A stretch of 49,512 nucleotides of DNA from Angustibacter sp. Root456 (lineage in GTDB: Bacteria; Actinomycetota; Actinomycetes; Actinomycetales; Angustibacteraceae). The notes beneath the pieces were generated by a model that saw only the letters and a program-made list of their open reading frames with translations, made no database searches and was not told the DNA's origin. The stretch spans positions 1 through 49,512 of the forward strand of contig NZ_LMER01000002.1 in NCBI RefSeq assembly GCF_001426435.1. The letters run 5' to 3'. The translations under genes and the position numbers were made by a program. Of this stretch, positions 24,213 to 48,662 are shown piece by piece (positions within the stretch are counted from its first letter, which is position 1; each line of letters starts with the position of its first letter).

Positions 24213-24734
24213 ATGAGCCTGTTCGCCGTCACCGTGCTCGGCCACGACCGGCCGGGGATCGTCGCCGACACCACCGCCGCGCTCGCCCGCCTCGGGGGCA
24301 ACCTCGAGGACTCCACGATGACGCTGCTGGGCGGCCACTTCGCCATGCTGCTGCTCGTGCGCACCGGGAGCGGGCGGGAGGGCGTCGAGCACGCGCTGCA
24401 GCCGCTCGGCGCCGACGGGTTGCTCACGGTGGACGTGCGCGAGGTCACGGACGACGCCGCGACGCCCGCACCGGCGTCCGACCTGCACGTGCTGAGCGTG
24501 CACGGCGCCGACCGGGCGGGCATCGTCAGCGCCGTCACCGGCGTGCTCGCCGGTGCGGGTGGCAACGTCACCGACCTCACGACCCGCCTGGCCGGTGGCC
24601 TCTACGTGCTGCTCGCCGACGTCGCGCTGCCGGCGTCCGTCGACGTCGCGGCCCTGCGCCAGGCGCTCGCGGCCACAGCGGACGAGCTCGGCGTCGACGT
24701 CTCGCTGCGCCCGGTCGACACCGACGAGCTGTGA
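24213..24734 (+). CDS. Double ACT-domain protein (GcvR-like)
   Basis: 173 residues made of two ACT domains. The first starts FAVTVLGHDRPGIVADTTAA and the second LHVLSVHGADRAGIVSAVTG, both with the DRxGI ligand loop. ACT pairs bind amino acids and regulate enzymes or transcription; GcvR in enteric bacteria is the nearest described type. No DNA-binding or catalytic domain is present. It ends in an overlap with the deformylase gene (GTGA). Confidence 0.85.
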   Translation: MSLFAVTVLGHDRPGIVADTTAALARLGGNLEDSTMTLLGGHFAMLLLVRTGSGREGVEHALQPLGADGLLTVDVREVTDDAATPAPASDLHVLSVHGADRAGIVSAVTGVLAGAGGNVTDLTTRLAGGLYVLLADVALPASVDVAALRQALAATADELGVDVSLRPVDTDEL

Positions 24735-25273
24735 GCGAGCCCTTGCTCGTCATGCCGCAGCTGCCGGACGGCGTGGTGCGCGACGTCGTGCGCGCCCCGG
24801 CCCGGGTGCTGTCGACGCCCGGACTCGACGTCGATCCCACCGACCCCGACGTGGTGCAGCTGGCCGCGGACCTGCTGGCGACCCAGGCCGTGTCGCCCGG
24901 GTGCGTCGGGCTGGCTGCGCAGCAGGTGGGCGTCGCCTGGCGGGTCTTCAGCGTCGACGTCTCCGCACATCCCAAGACCCGCACGTGCCACGGTGCCTTC
25001 GTGCTGTGCAACGCCGTCGTCGTCGAGGGTTCGCGGCGTGAGAGGGGCCGTGAGGGCTGCCTGTCGGTTCCCGATCTCACCGGAGACGTCAAGCGCTACC
25101 GCAGGGTCGTCGTGCGCGGGCTGCTGCCGGTGACGGGCGAGCAGGTGACGATCGCGACCGACGCCTTCGAGGCCGTCGCGCTGCAGCACGAGATCGACCA
25201 CACCGACGGCGCGCTGTTCCTCGACCGCGTGGCGGGGGCGCACGCCCTGCACGCCCGCCAGACCTACCTCTAA
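24731..25273 (+). CDS. def: Peptide deformylase
   Basis: 180 residues. It removes the formyl group from nascent proteins. The three motifs are present: GLAAQQVG (60-67), EGCLS (108-112, Cys metal ligand) and HEIDH (153-157, two His ligands and catalytic Glu). GTG 24731 overlaps the preceding stop. It is followed by a spacer and then the tRNA gene. Confidence 0.95.
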   Translation: MSEPLLVMPQLPDGVVRDVVRAPARVLSTPGLDVDPTDPDVVQLAADLLATQAVSPGCVGLAAQQVGVAWRVFSVDVSAHPKTRTCHGAFVLCNAVVVEGSRRERGREGCLSVPDLTGDVKRYRRVVVRGLLPVTGEQVTIATDAFEAVALQHEIDHTDGALFLDRVAGAHALHARQTYL

Positions 25274-25380: not shown

Positions 25381-25422
25381 GGGTCTGGCCGCCCCGGACG
25401 GCGGGTCTGGCCGCTCTAGGCT
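25381..25422 (+). promoter_or_regulatory. tRNA promoter region with a 12-bp direct repeat
   Basis: GGGTCTGGCCGC occurs at 25381-25392 and 25403-25414, exactly 22 bases apart (two helical turns). TAGGCT at 25417-25422 lies 6 bases before the tRNA 5' end and fits a -10 element. The repeated hexads could bind a regulator side by side. Confidence 0.45.
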
Positions 25423-25428
25423 GGGTGC

Positions 25429-25502
25429 GCCCCCGTAGCCCAACCGGCAGAGGCAGACGCCTTAAAAGCGTCCGAGTGCGGGTTCGAACCCCGTCGGGGG
25501 CA
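25429..25502 (+). tRNA. tRNA with anticodon UAA but class I structure
   Basis: The cloverleaf folds cleanly: acceptor GCCCCCG (25429-25435) with CGGGGGC (25495-25501) and discriminator A. The D-arm starts at 25438. The anticodon stem GACGC/GCGTC has loop CTTAAAA, anticodon TAA at 25463-25465. A five-base variable loop CGAGT and T-arm GCGGG TTCGAAC CCCGT follow. Anticodon UAA reads the leucine codon UUA, but canonical tRNA-Leu is class II with a long variable arm, which is absent here. CCA is not encoded. A tRNA-Leu(UAA) label would rest on the anticodon alone; charging identity is uncertain. Confidence 0.85.
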
Positions 25503-25648
25503 CGCCGACGCGCCGACCGGGAACTGCCGCGCCGTCGCCCGCGTCTGACAGGGTGGCGGGAACTTTCGACGGCGTTCCCGCATTGACTGGTGTGACGGCC
25601 CGCGACGGCGGGACGCCAACGGGCCCGCACGGGCCGAGGAGGAGCACG

Positions 25649-26443
25649 ATGAGCAACCCGGTGTTCGAGCGGATGAAGGACAGCCGCGGCTACGCCACGT
25701 TCGGCCCGCCCGGAGCCACGCGTCAGCCCAGCGGGTACGCCACGCCGTCCCCGGACGAGCTCGAGACGATGTACAACGCGCCGTCCGCGACGCCGGTCGA
25801 CACCCGCCGGATGACCTACGACGACGTCGTGGTCAAGACGGCGATCGTCTTCGCGGCCGTGCTCGTGGGTGGTGTGGTCGGCTGGAAGGTCCCTGGCCTG
25901 ATGTGGGTCGGCCTCATCGGCGGCCTCGTGCTGGGTCTGGTCAACTCGTTCAAGAAGAGCCCCAGCCCGGCGCTCATCGTCGGCTACGGCCTGCTCGAGG
26001 GCGTGGCCCTCGGCGGCATCAGCATGTTCTTCGAGGGACGCTACCCAGGCATCGTCGCGCAAGCCGTGCTCGGCACGCTCAGCGTCTTCGCCGCCGTGCT
26101 CGTGGGCTTCCGCAGCGGCAAGCTGCGCACCTCGCCGAAGCTGAACAAGATCTTCTTCATCGCGATCGGCGGGTACCTGCTGTTCTCGCTGGTCAACCTC
26201 GGCCTGATGGTGTTCGCCGGCCAGGACTCCCTGCGCGCCGGCCCCCTCGGCCTGGTGATCGGCGCCTTCGCGGTGCTGCTCGCGTCGTACTCGCTGGTCA
26301 TGGACTTCGAGTTCATCAAGGCCGGCGTCGAGCAGGGCGCCCCGGCCAAGTTCGCCTGGACGGCGGCCTTCGGTCTCGTCGTCACGCTCGTCTGGCTCTA
26401 CATCGAGATCCTGCGGATCCTCGCGATCCTGCGCGGCGACTGA
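25649..26443 (+). CDS. Bax inhibitor-1/YccA family membrane protein
   Basis: 264 residues. After a polar N-terminus of about 75 residues come seven hydrophobic spans, for example TAIVFAAVLVGGVVGWKV, MWVGLIGGLVLGLVNSF and FGLVVTLVWLYIEILRIL. The LIVGYGLLEGVALGGIS and DFEFIKAGVEQGAPAKFAW segments, with acidic residues near the last helices, are characteristic of the family. Members act as Ca2+ leak or stress-related membrane proteins; the role in actinobacteria is not established. ATG 25649 has GAGGAGG with a 6-base gap. Confidence 0.88.
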   Translation: MSNPVFERMKDSRGYATFGPPGATRQPSGYATPSPDELETMYNAPSATPVDTRRMTYDDVVVKTAIVFAAVLVGGVVGWKVPGLMWVGLIGGLVLGLVNSFKKSPSPALIVGYGLLEGVALGGISMFFEGRYPGIVAQAVLGTLSVFAAVLVGFRSGKLRTSPKLNKIFFIAIGGYLLFSLVNLGLMVFAGQDSLRAGPLGLVIGAFAVLLASYSLVMDFEFIKAGVEQGAPAKFAWTAAFGLVVTLVWLYIEILRILAILRGD

Positions 26444-45267: not shown

Positions 45268-47457
45268 ATGGCAGAGAGCTTAGGCTTCAAGGCGCATGCA
45301 CGGCTCCTGACAATGCTCGGCGAACAACTCATCAAAAACGAACGTATTGCGCTGGTTGAGATCGTAAAAAACTCCTATGACGCGGATGCGCGAAGAGTAG
45401 TCGTCGACTTCCGTGGCTTCGGCGAAGCATTCGAGGTGCTGCCAGATTCCGCTCTGGTGATAACCGACGACGGGTTTGGGATGGAGCCCAACGTCGTACG
45501 GCACACCTGGATGAGCCCGGCGACGCCCAGCAAGGCTCGAGCCAAACGCGCGCGGCCTCGCACGCCGCTCGGCCGCGCTATCCAAGGGGAGAAGGGGATC
45601 GGCAGGTTCGCGACATTCAAGCTCGGCCGCCAACTTGCAGTCACCTCGCGGGCTGAAGGGGCCCCAATAGAGACCACCCTGCTGATCGACATCGGGGTCT
45701 TGGATGATGCAGGCCATGGATCGCAGGCCGAGGACATGTATCTCGAAGAAATGGCGGCGATCATAGACACGAGTGCCCCCGTGATCTTCGACGGTTCCGG
45801 GCCCATGGCAAGCGAGCATGGCACTCAACTGGAGGTTCGCGGCCTCCGAGCCGAGTGGAACGCCAAGTTGGTCCGCGAAGTGTTCGAAGACGTAGGTCGC
45901 CTTGAGCCTGTCATGTGGAGCGCTAGCGGTGAAGATAGGGCCGCAGCCTTCGAGGTAACGTTCTGTCGCGATGGCGTTGATATGCGGTTGAATGTGGAAC
46001 GGAATGCAGATTTCCAAGCGGTGCTTCAGCGCGCGGTCCTGAAGGTCGAAGACGGTCGCTTCGATCCAGTCGGCCGTCAGTTCGTATTCACGCTAGACGG
46101 CCGAGAGGAGGTGCTAAGTATCGATGACGCCCAGATTCGCGGGTTGAAGGTATTTCGTGACCACTTCCTTGAGGGCACAGAGGCTCTGCCCCGCCCGCAA
46201 TGTGGGCCCTTCGCATTCGAGTTCTACGTCTTTGACTTCAGTGCTACCGCACCAGCGGCGCACTCTCTCGATCGCGATGAGAAGGCCCTTCTGAAACGGC
46301 ACCGCGTCTACCTCTACAGAGACGGGATCCGCGTCTACCCCTACGGGGATCCAGGAGACGACTGGCTGCAGATCGACGTGATCAGAGGGACGCAGTCCGC
46401 CCGGTCCATGTTCAGTAACGATCAGACTGCCGGCTTCGTGTCCATCACACAGGAGCACAATCCGCGGCTGAGAGATAAGACCAACCGCGAAGGCCTCCTG
46501 GAAGATGGGCCGGCTACGGGCGACTTTGTTGCCCTAATCCAGACCATCCTTGCGTACCTGCGAGCAAAGCCCTACGAGCGCTACGCGGCTGCGAACAGAC
46601 GCGTTCGAGAGCGGAAGCTTGAGGGCAAGCGTGTTGACCAGTTCGTCAACGCAATGCGGCAAACCGCGAATCTCCCGTCGAGTGCCACCAAGGCACTCGA
46701 CGCCCTCGAAGACTCCCTCAGTGCTGAGCGCGAACTTGCGAACTTGAGGATCTCGCGCACTGAGCAGCTCGCAGGTGTTGGCTTGTCAGTGGAGACAGCC
46801 TCTCACGACCTGATCGCTGCGGGGCAGGAGGCGCTAAGGCTTGCCCGCCGCTTGTTGGACGATCTCCGATACCACGACCTGACAAGCGAACCAATATTCG
46901 CGCAGGCGAAAGCCCTGGTCGCCCGGTTAGAGTTTGTCGTCAGTCGATTCTCTGATGTCCAAGGACTATTTGTCTCTACTCGCCAAAGGCGAAGTCGCAT
47001 CGACGTTCTGCAACTGATTCGCAAAGTTCGGTCTATGTATGCGAGCCTCCATCGAGACCAGAAGATTGACTTTGACGTGGACGGGGCCGGTAAGGTGATC
47101 GCGGAAACGACTGAGAGCGCGCTTCTGCAATGCGTGATAAATCTTGTTGATAACGCGACCTACTGGCTTATGACTACCTCTGGTCGAGAGCGAAGGATTC
47201 GCGCATACGCGCTGGGCGCAGACGCCGTCGTTATCACTGACAATGGGCCCGGTGTCAGAGAGGAAGACGTCCCCTTCATTTTCGAGCCTTTTTACTCAGG
47301 TAAGGGAGACGAGGGCAAGGGGCTAGGCCTGTATATCGCCAGGCAAAACGGACTTCGTAACGGCTTCGCCGTCGACGTGGCGCAGTCACCGCCAGACGAG
47401 AGAGCGCTTGCTGGCGCTACATTTACCGTATCGTTCGACTCGGGGGCTAAATCGTGA
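45268..47457 (+). CDS. Dual GHKL ATPase: Hsp90/MutL-like plus histidine-kinase-like domain
   Basis: 729 residues. The N-terminal ATPase has ALVEIVKNSYDADA (N35), ITDDGFGM (67-72) and GEKGIGRFATFKLG (107-120), the Hsp90/MutL/MORC pattern. A middle region (about 200-440) follows, then a helical segment with a histidine-kinase-like H-box, ETASHDLIAAG (H513). The C-terminal ATPase has N-box VINLVDNA (N625, N629), G1 ITDNGPGV, F-box FEPFYSGK and G2 GKGLGLYIA. It may sense DNA or a phage cue and phosphorylate the coupled receiver protein. TTA codons occur at 45280 and 46927. Its stop overlaps the next GTG. Confidence 0.88.
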   Translation: MAESLGFKAHARLLTMLGEQLIKNERIALVEIVKNSYDADARRVVVDFRGFGEAFEVLPDSALVITDDGFGMEPNVVRHTWMSPATPSKARAKRARPRTPLGRAIQGEKGIGRFATFKLGRQLAVTSRAEGAPIETTLLIDIGVLDDAGHGSQAEDMYLEEMAAIIDTSAPVIFDGSGPMASEHGTQLEVRGLRAEWNAKLVREVFEDVGRLEPVMWSASGEDRAAAFEVTFCRDGVDMRLNVERNADFQAVLQRAVLKVEDGRFDPVGRQFVFTLDGREEVLSIDDAQIRGLKVFRDHFLEGTEALPRPQCGPFAFEFYVFDFSATAPAAHSLDRDEKALLKRHRVYLYRDGIRVYPYGDPGDDWLQIDVIRGTQSARSMFSNDQTAGFVSITQEHNPRLRDKTNREGLLEDGPATGDFVALIQTILAYLRAKPYERYAAANRRVRERKLEGKRVDQFVNAMRQTANLPSSATKALDALEDSLSAERELANLRISRTEQLAGVGLSVETASHDLIAAGQEALRLARRLLDDLRYHDLTSEPIFAQAKALVARLEFVVSRFSDVQGLFVSTRQRRSRIDVLQLIRKVRSMYASLHRDQKIDFDVDGAGKVIAETTESALLQCVINLVDNATYWLMTTSGRERRIRAYALGADAVVITDNGPGVREEDVPFIFEPFYSGKGDEGKGLGLYIARQNGLRNGFAVDVAQSPPDERALAGATFTVSFDSGAKS

Positions 47458-48662
47458 GCCTTCTTTCCGGGCCAGTAGTTTTCATTGATGACGAAATTGA
47501 CAATGATGAAAGCGAGGCGGGTCAACTACTTTCCGCGCTCAAGGCTTCAGGGAGGCCCGTCCTTGCGGTGAGAGATCTGCCAGAGGAAGACGCGCGCGAC
47601 ACCTGGTTCGAACACTGGCAGACCCTATCCTTCGTGGTTGTCGATTGGGATCTGAGCCCGGGCTCTCTCGGCGCAGTTGGCAGCTCAACCCTCAGTGAGT
47701 TCAAGCGGCGTGCCCTCTTCGATTTCCTCGATCGGCTGATGCAGGTTGTCTACTGCCCGATCTTCATAATCAGTCGAGAGGACGCGGACGAAATCAAGCG
47801 GCAGATTCATGAGAGCGAACAACTCCGGAACTCAGCCGGCGATGTCGATGCGCGCATCACCGTGTTCCCCAAGCGTGAGTTGATGGAGAATATCGTTGAG
47901 CACTTGACGAACAGGATTGCGGCCAGCCCTGCCCTGTCGGTGTTGCGCACCTGGGAGCAGGAGTTTGACGCAGCCCGAAACCGGCTCTTCATTGACTTGA
48001 ACAGCATGGAGCCGGACTGGCCGGTCTACGTGTGGCGTATGGCCGTTGATGACGGCGTGGACCCGGCGTTTGAGCTCTCGTCTGTGATCAGCTCCAACCT
48101 GTTGACGCGCCTGAACCCCGTGGCCTTCGACGATGGCTGTACCCAGCAGGACGTGGCTATTTCCCCCGCCGCGGTAAGGAAAGTCCTAAATGGACGGACC
48201 TTTGTTGACAACTCTCGGCTGTCTGAACGCATGGTATTTCCTGGGGACCTCTTTCGCTTGGACGGGGCAGGGGTCGATGAGTTATGGATCAACATTTCGC
48301 CGGTCTGCCAAACGGTGCCGAGGCCCGGCCCGTATGGGCAGCCTGCCCAACCAATCCGCCTGCACCTGATCCGTGGCGAGCGTGCCGACGTCAGTTCTCT
48401 TTCGCAGTTCAGGAGACTGGAGAATCGGCAGAAGGGCCCAGCTGGCGAGGTCGTGCATACTCTGCTGGACGACGCTCCCTACTACTTCGAGTTTCGCCAC
48501 GCGCAACTGCTCGACTGGGATGACATCAGGCAGTATCGGATTGGTCGACTCTTGCCGCCGTACGCCACGCGGTTTCAACAGAAGCACGCGGCGTATTTGC
48601 AGGCCGAAGGGTTGCCCCGAGTCGACTACACCATCTACAGCGACGTCTCGGATCCCGCGTGA
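47454..48662 (+). CDS. Receiver-domain protein with C-terminal domain of unknown function
   Basis: 402 residues. Residues 1-150 look like a response-regulator receiver: VVFIDDEID (acidic D12, D13, E14), FVVVDWDLSPG (candidate phosphoacceptor D64), PIFIISRED (S107) and VFPKREL (K140). The remaining 250 residues have no motif I can name; DAPYYFEFRHAQLLDW near 350 is conserved-looking but is not a clear nuclease site. GTG 47454 overlaps the dual-GHKL stop (GTGA), so the two are made together as a likely kinase-receiver pair. The C-terminal domain is the natural effector candidate. A TTA codon is at 48282. Confidence 0.8.
   Translation: MSLLSGPVVFIDDEIDNDESEAGQLLSALKASGRPVLAVRDLPEEDARDTWFEHWQTLSFVVVDWDLSPGSLGAVGSSTLSEFKRRALFDFLDRLMQVVYCPIFIISREDADEIKRQIHESEQLRNSAGDVDARITVFPKRELMENIVEHLTNRIAASPALSVLRTWEQEFDAARNRLFIDLNSMEPDWPVYVWRMAVDDGVDPAFELSSVISSNLLTRLNPVAFDDGCTQQDVAISPAAVRKVLNGRTFVDNSRLSERMVFPGDLFRLDGAGVDELWINISPVCQTVPRPGPYGQPAQPIRLHLIRGERADVSSLSQFRRLENRQKGPAGEVVHTLLDDAPYYFEFRHAQLLDWDDIRQYRIGRLLPPYATRFQQKHAAYLQAEGLPRVDYTIYSDVSDPA

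Follow-up and report, generated by a model that had tools for sequence, protein, structure and literature searches.

A class I leucine tRNA with a UAA anticodon in Angustibacter sp. Root456 and its actinobacterial relatives

Introduction

By the textbook rule used in tRNA identity and annotation, leucine tRNAs belong to class II, and the class II UAA tRNA of Streptomyces-like genomes is presumably bldA. According to the excerpted text of a 2023 review tRNA-Leu is long-armed everywhere but in animal mitochondria; the same text describes the long arm as dispensable in E. coli tRNA-Leu, of which variants without the arm remain active, and lists A73, A15-U48, G18G19 and A20a as the leucine identity elements for E. 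coli (PMC9976931). Long loops are given for tRNA-Leu-2, -3 and -5 of M. tuberculosis in an excerpt of another paper (PMC11541572), from which, by implication only, the remaining tRNA-Leu of this species would be short-looped. A tRNA-Leu(TAG) with a short loop is mentioned in a mycobacterial cluster in the excerpted part of a third source (PMC6582537). In our searches of the open-licence PMC literature we met no paper that presents class I tRNA-Leu as a lineage-wide trait of actinobacteria, and earlier notice elsewhere is possible.

Here we analysed a tRNA gene located in a stretch of 49,512 nucleotides from Angustibacter sp. Root456, which we call the window throughout. Our results point to a housekeeping, UUA-reading leucine tRNA without the long arm that would be charged by LeuRS and would decode UUA (and UUG) as leucine, a reading to which we give a probability of about 0.9.

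Results

A complete cloverleaf with a five-nucleotide variable loop

ARAGORN made a single tRNA call in the window, a tRNA-Leu with the anticodon taa at 25429-25503 (+), and the Rfam tRNA model (RF00005) covers 25429-25502 end to end at E 4e-10, its gathering score being 29. The gene and its parts are:

25429..25502, + strand: tRNA-Leu(UAA) gene, variable loop short (class I), no encoded CCA (ARAGORN, Rfam, sequence reading)
25417..25422, + strand: TAGGCT, a TANNNT -10-like hexamer just upstream of the tRNA, putative promoter
25438..25454, + strand: leucine-type D arm GCCC-AACCGGCAG-AGGC with a 3-bp stem, C13.A22 mismatch, A14 A15, G18 G19 and A20a
25463..25465, + strand: anticodon TAA, in the loop CTTAAAA with A36-A37-A38; reads UUA
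25473..25477, + strand: variable loop CGAGT, 5 nt, with a GT end as in the genome's three class II leucine arms
25502..25502, + strand: discriminator A73, leucine identity base (role as given in an excerpt of PMC9976931)

The acceptor (7 bp, strands GCCCCCG/CGGGGGC) and the T stem (5 bp, in the T arm GCGGG-TTCGAAC-CCCGT) form 12 of 12 pairs, and the anticodon stem is GACGC/GCGTC. Class II requires a variable loop of at least 10 nt and the 5 nt found here place the tRNA in class I. The class I cloverleaf with UAA and a five-base loop that had been described from the sequence alone is thus borne out by ARAGORN, the RF00005 match and the stem pairs. A UAA anticodon also reads UUG by wobble. The TAGGCT hexamer lies just ahead of the gene and TAGGCTGG precedes the tRNA in a similar position at 4 of the 18 other loci printed; a promoter from which the tRNA would be transcribed is therefore plausible here.

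The only UAA tRNA of the genome

The genome (3.84 Mb in 20 contigs, 100% complete) gave 45 tRNAs in a whole-genome Rfam scan, and all 45 were read. The tRNA at 25429-25502 is the sole one with a UAA anticodon. A standard class II tRNA-Leu(UAA) elsewhere in the genome, the first check that the sequence-only reading had proposed, is absent from these 45 tRNAs, which rules out a hidden one. The class II tRNAs are Leu CAG, GAG and UAG (variable loops of 15, 17 and 13 nt, respectively), Ser CGA, GCU, GGA and UGA, and Tyr GUA. The class I leucine tRNAs are CAA and UAA, each with a 5-nt variable loop, so that in this genome both UUR readers are armless and the three CUN readers armed. The class I tRNA-Leu(CAA) lies at G000:C14:264448-264520 (locus L040) and has the loop ACAGT; its D stem, TTCC/AGAA, is divergent.

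The armless tRNA has a leucine body

Within the genome, a D loop ending in GGCAG, combined with a D stem of 3 bp and a mismatch at 13.22, is found in 5 of 5 leucine tRNAs and in 0 of 40 others. Besides its leucine anticodon (A35), tRNA-Leu(UAA) has the discriminator A73, the A15-U48 pair, and G18G19 and A20a in the D loop, i.e. all four leucine identity elements in the excerpted E. coli list (PMC9976931), a set of rules for E. coli and not for actinobacteria. In a tree, 92 leucine rows from the two classes form one group at 100/99, away from eight rows for Arg, Val, Met and Ser tRNAs of the Angustibacter genome; the anticodon was masked and the variable loop trimmed to its last base, leaving few columns, rough support and many open forks. 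The tree supports a leucine body and does not bear on the direction of arm change, and with so few columns and so many open forks it was discarded for timing arm loss. Judged by these sequence features, the body of tRNA-Leu(UAA) is a leucine body. Charging with leucine by an unusual route, one of the options raised earlier, is unnecessary, given that the E. coli identity elements are kept and that the long arm is dispensable in E. coli in the account cited (PMC9976931, in excerpt).

A special LeuRS for the armless tRNA was also considered and is not supported: a single LeuRS passes the family cut-off in the Angustibacter genome (C3:61597-64395), and each of two LeuRS forms co-occurs with class I UAA tRNAs among the 20 genomes compared (one of them, G535, with weak hits only). 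The long form has about 960 aa and the short one about 830 aa; both are present within the class (L149-L178), the short one in Rothia, Rathayibacter and family f113.

The discriminator is G73 instead of A73 in 2 of 49 class I UAA tRNAs (L087 and L098, family f7) and in 1 of 10 class II UAA tRNAs. In L087 and L098, which come from two genomes, G1.U72 is found alongside G73, which is unusual, A73 being a key leucine base.

UUA stands for leucine in relatives with the same tRNA

The expectation that UUA would be extremely rare was correct for Angustibacter, where TTA makes up 6 of 5,499 leucine codons in a sample of 138 crudely called genes (about 190 kb of 3.84 Mb). Low-GC relatives with a class I UAA tRNA have a UUA share of 9-12% of leucine codons: TTA accounts for 396 of 3,376 in the f113 stretches (48% GC) and for 35 of 381 in a stretch from Rothia. 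Codons of these relatives were aligned to homologues, with the subjects' TTA/TTG codons left out and duplicate loci removed. Leucine was the top residue in 139 of 188 TTA columns (74%; 186 of 256 before duplicate removal), compared with 71-86% for the CTN codons (CTT 379/482, CTC 267/355, CTA 97/113, CTG 74/104). UUA means leucine in these relatives. G498 is the one low-GC genome of the codon test for which all class II tRNAs were read. It has six of them, namely Leu UAG, Leu GAG, three Ser and Tyr; none is for UUR, so no class II UUR reader is hidden there. In G237 (family f22) the class II tRNAs are eight, Leu UAG, GAG and CAG, four Ser and Tyr.

In the Angustibacter genome itself the unfiltered codon alignment had three TTA columns, one each of L, V and F, and the TTG columns had F in 16 of 52 and L in 12 of 52. 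With called genes, TTG columns were L in 9 of 12, for which reason the unfiltered TTG-on-F columns are taken as wrong-frame noise, and no TTA column was left in that alignment. UUA is probably leucine in Angustibacter as well.

These data bear on a reassignment of UUA, in which the tRNA would be charged with another amino acid and the change tolerated as the codon is nearly absent. Its rarity in the 138-gene sample would fit this, as would a class I shape atypical for leucine tRNAs and a 5' acceptor strand identical to that of the genome's own tRNA-Arg(CCU), which likewise has A73. However, the D arm is of the leucine type with C20 and A20a, while the four Arg tRNAs read in this genome have a 4-bp D stem; the tree places both leucine classes together; and in relatives that have the same tRNA UUA is frequent and falls mostly in columns with leucine as the top residue, not the other residue expected of a reassigned codon (in Angustibacter itself TTA is too rare for this comparison). 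With a leucine body, one LeuRS and the relatives' UUA at leucine positions no reassignment is needed, and we regard it as very improbable. The two other proposals made from the sequence alone, charging with a different amino acid at UUA and a non-translational role, are not supported by this evidence, and a leucine tRNA that decodes UUA remains our preferred reading.

Class I tRNA-Leu(UAA) is widespread in actinobacteria

A blastn search of 99 genomes (Angustibacter and 98 relatives) gave matches in 90. The best 30 loci (its own and those of 29 relatives) are all tRNA-Leu(UAA), 28 with a 5-nt and two with a 6-nt loop. Orthologues carrying other anticodons on the same body, which the earlier reading had named as the sign of a recent mutation, were not seen among these 30 loci, and a recent change of anticodon is ruled out. 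A tRNA without any part in translation, be it a recent mutant, a pseudogene or a non-coding RNA, could be suspected from the Rfam score of 58.3 bits, which most class I tRNAs of this genome exceed. This is contradicted by the retention of UAA throughout the best 30 loci, by the complete acceptor and T-stem pairing, and by the fact that TTA is present in called genes yet no other tRNA of the genome has this anticodon, leaving it the least credible of the alternatives and the housekeeping reading in place.

Phylum-wide, 264 of 396 genomes matched a UAA leucine pattern of either class, chance matches included. A class I-only UAA pattern matched 103 of 396; demanding at least 4 of 5 anticodon-stem pairs kept 91 of the 103, and with one (G285) taken as chance 90 remained. 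This puts class I tRNA-Leu(UAA) in some 90 of the 396 genomes, which were drawn from the whole phylum, and in 19 families, as counted with patterns that fix G18G19, A20a, G21 and A22 and so miss leucine tRNAs with other D loops. It was found in 20 of 20 genomes of family f22 (inferred to be Mycobacterium-like) and 12 of 12 of f69, and the class I UAA pattern had no match in the 19 genomes of f21 (inferred to be Streptomyces-like). Six of seven named genomes searched have class I UAA matches (Brevibacterium casei, a Dermabacteraceae strain, Agrococcus lahaulensis, Microbacteriaceae bacterium VKM Ac-2855, Rathayibacter and a Rothia MAG), and each of these six has a class II CAA match; the seventh, Pseudoclavibacter, had a class II CAA match only. 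Class I UAA tRNAs are also found in Nonomuraea gerenzanensis, Nocardia farcinica and an Arthrobacter, in records filed as plasmids. The Mycolicibacterium plasmid pTY66_01 (L226) carries a class I tRNA-Leu(UAA) whose loop has 6 nt; its site has no feature in the PLSDB gene table, which omits RNA genes.

The classes can also be reversed. Two f3 genomes (G021 and G052) have a class II UAA and a class I CAA tRNA, a third (G080) has a class I UAA tRNA, and in the f21 genome G247 CAA is class I and UAA class II. From these combinations it appears that the UAA and CAA tRNAs changed class independently of each other.

A gene neighbourhood common to armless and armed UAA tRNAs

In the window the gene order is eno, DUF501, ppx, UDG, ACT, def, the tRNA, a Bax1-like gene and a thiolase gene (on the opposite strand). 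The immediate neighbours are:

24731..25273, + strand: peptide deformylase gene (def), upstream of the tRNA (Pep_deformylase, E 7.9e-37); the order is alike in Nonomuraea gerenzanensis
25652..26443, + strand: Bax inhibitor-1-like gene, downstream (BaxI_1, E 1.1e-78); a neighbour of tRNA-Leu(UAA) of either class in many genomes

Among the 29 other best loci, 22 have at least one of the window's neighbours within 1.5 kb and seven have none. Nonomuraea keeps UDG-ACT-def-tRNA-Bax1-thiolase in the order of the window, and four f113 stretches have eno-DUF501-ppx-UDG-tRNA with Bax1 beyond. At named Bax1 loci, mostly of Micrococcales, a tRNA-Leu(UAA) was present in the examined stretch of 3 of 27 only, so the place beside Bax1 is not fixed everywhere; a fixed place was discarded on this count and on that of the seven relatives' loci. 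The position near def, for which a survey had been suggested, is kept in some relatives and not in all.

A long-arm-only pattern, with ARAGORN used as well, found class II UAA tRNAs in 3 of 4 f21 genomes and in G286 of family f23. In two f21 genomes this tRNA lies between ppx (about 7 kb off) and Bax1-thiolase, and in G286 it is beside Bax1-thiolase with UDG about 6 kb off. The common neighbourhood suggests that the armless and the armed UAA tRNAs are probably positional orthologues. The window tRNA has the surroundings found in the two f21 genomes and lacks the class II body of the bldA type.

It could be asked whether, besides decoding, the window tRNA acts as a bldA-like switch, the level of a sole rare-codon reader gating a few TTA-bearing genes. 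The neighbourhood that it has in common with the bldA-like tRNA of Streptomyces-like genomes and the rarity of TTA in the sample speak for this, as do three of the six TTA codons falling in two adjacent genes of a low-GC stretch (45.3-48.7 kb). Low-GC DNA, however, is richer in TTA by composition alone, the TTA counts come from a small sample of about 190 kb out of 3.84 Mb, and roughly one leucine codon in ten is read by this tRNA in the low-GC relatives, which means that regulation is not the general role of the armless tRNA. We consider such a switch unlikely, if less so than reassignment, and keep to the housekeeping role in decoding.

Between 42500 and 48999 of the window the GC content drops from about 72% to 55-66%. 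The protein encoded at 45268-47457 has two GHKL-type ATPase matches (Pfam) and its N-terminal part matches a type II restriction enzyme model in PADLOC (E 1.1e-12); 47454-48662 has no Pfam match. The two genes may be an acquired signalling or defence pair.

Core of the armless type

Distinct leucine tRNAs of the two classes, 65 of class I and 27 of class II, were compared. All 65 class I tRNAs have C-G at pair 12-23 and all 27 class II tRNAs have G-C; at nucleotide 9, A is found in 59 of the 65 class I tRNAs and G in all 27 class II tRNAs. In class I 13.22 is C.A in 65 of 65 and the loop ends in GT in 58 of 65. Positions 9, 12, 13 and 23 were free in the search patterns behind these rows, and many class I rows were gathered by similarity to the window tRNA, which favours common features. 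Nucleotide 9 and pair 12-23 contact each other in the tRNA core. Since they touch, the armless type looks, at the level of sequence, as though the core had been re-tuned and not as though the arm had simply been deleted.

Armless leucine tRNAs in phages

The same armless type was found in Corynebacterium phage StAB (CAA), Gordonia phage Phendrix (UAG), Myxococcus phage Mx1 (UAA), cyanophage P-RSM6 (UAA) and an unverified gut phage scaffold (UAA), and further phage records matched by similarity. In a tRNA array of Bacillus phage P59 (L221), two class I leucine tRNAs with the anticodons UAG and UAA lie side by side. Bacterial tRNA-Leu(UAG) is class II in the four genomes read (G000, G237, G498 and G543).

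Viral sequences gave another line of support for the leucine body. IMG/VR was scanned with the D-arm pattern alone and no anticodon; at least 120 stretches matched, and 80 loci are among the matches listed. Among these matches, 73 of 84 occurrences of the D arm were called as tRNAs and 11 had no call; the anticodon is a leucine one in 70 of 70 readable cases, with three more unreadable (UAA 38, UAG 13, CAA 8, GAG 6, AAG 5), and the variable loop is 4-6 nt in 71 of 71 measured. Some of the uncalled occurrences, ten of the 11 being inspected, are apparently split by inserts. At L267 a group I intron lies beside a half gene of a class I leucine tRNA, and at L256, L257 and L261 class I leucine tRNAs are apparently interrupted near the anticodon by inserts of about 45-85 nt.

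These sequences suggest an exchange of the armless tRNA-Leu between phages and hosts. A wider proposal would be that the armless tRNA-Leu (A9, C12-G23, C13.A22, short loop) is one type common to actinobacteria and phages (hosts being actinobacteria, Bacillus, Myxococcus and Prochlorococcus) that moved between them, changed anticodons within the leucine set and more than once displaced class II UUA/UUG readers, including at the bldA locus. The phage-host move and the swaps are suggested because the signature and the neighbourhood are common and the distribution is mosaic; as a whole we hold this proposal only tentatively and think it rather doubtful.

Discussion

How could a leucine tRNA work without the long arm? 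The ordinary LeuRS would charge tRNA-Leu(UAA) with leucine through A73, A15-U48 and the D loop with G18G19 and A20a, and none of these contacts on the acceptor end, the D loop and the elbow should need the long arm. The charged tRNA would then decode UUA, plus UUG by wobble, as leucine. The armless form is probably an old state kept by vertical descent at the eno-DUF501-ppx-UDG-ACT-def-tRNA-Bax1 locus, and its class II counterpart in that neighbourhood of Streptomyces-like genomes is the bldA-like tRNA.

A sizeable part of one phylum, including f22, reads UUA with an armless leucine tRNA. Such tRNAs are natural material for asking whether LeuRS and the ribosome need the arm, and the comparison at a single locus, armless here versus armed in bldA-like genes, is a route to how the arm was lost or gained. 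They also bear on toxins such as MenT3, whose preference is for tRNAs carrying certain long variable arms according to an excerpt of its description (PMC11541572). Speculatively, the loss of the arm may spare the tRNA from toxins or nucleases that grip it.

Compared with known systems, the window tRNA resembles bacterial class II tRNA-Leu in A73, A14-A15/U48, G18G19, A20a, the 3-bp D stem, the mismatched 13.22 and a variable region ending in U48, but the variable loop of the armless type has 4-6 nt against 11-17 in class II tRNA-Leu. Like the window tRNA, the animal mitochondrial tRNA-Leu(UUR) has no long arm and is charged by LeuRS, as stated in the review excerpt; it is organellar and, in humans, its anticodon branch is partly unfolded (PMC9976931), whereas the window tRNA is bacterial, chromosomal and fully paired. 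Phage tRNA-Leu with short loops have the same D-arm signature and a 4-6 nt loop but are additional copies, while the window tRNA is the sole chromosomal UAA reader. Finally, Streptomyces bldA has in common with the window tRNA the UAA anticodon and the neighbourhood between ppx and a Bax1-like gene, followed by the thiolase, and differs in its class II body where the window tRNA is class I.
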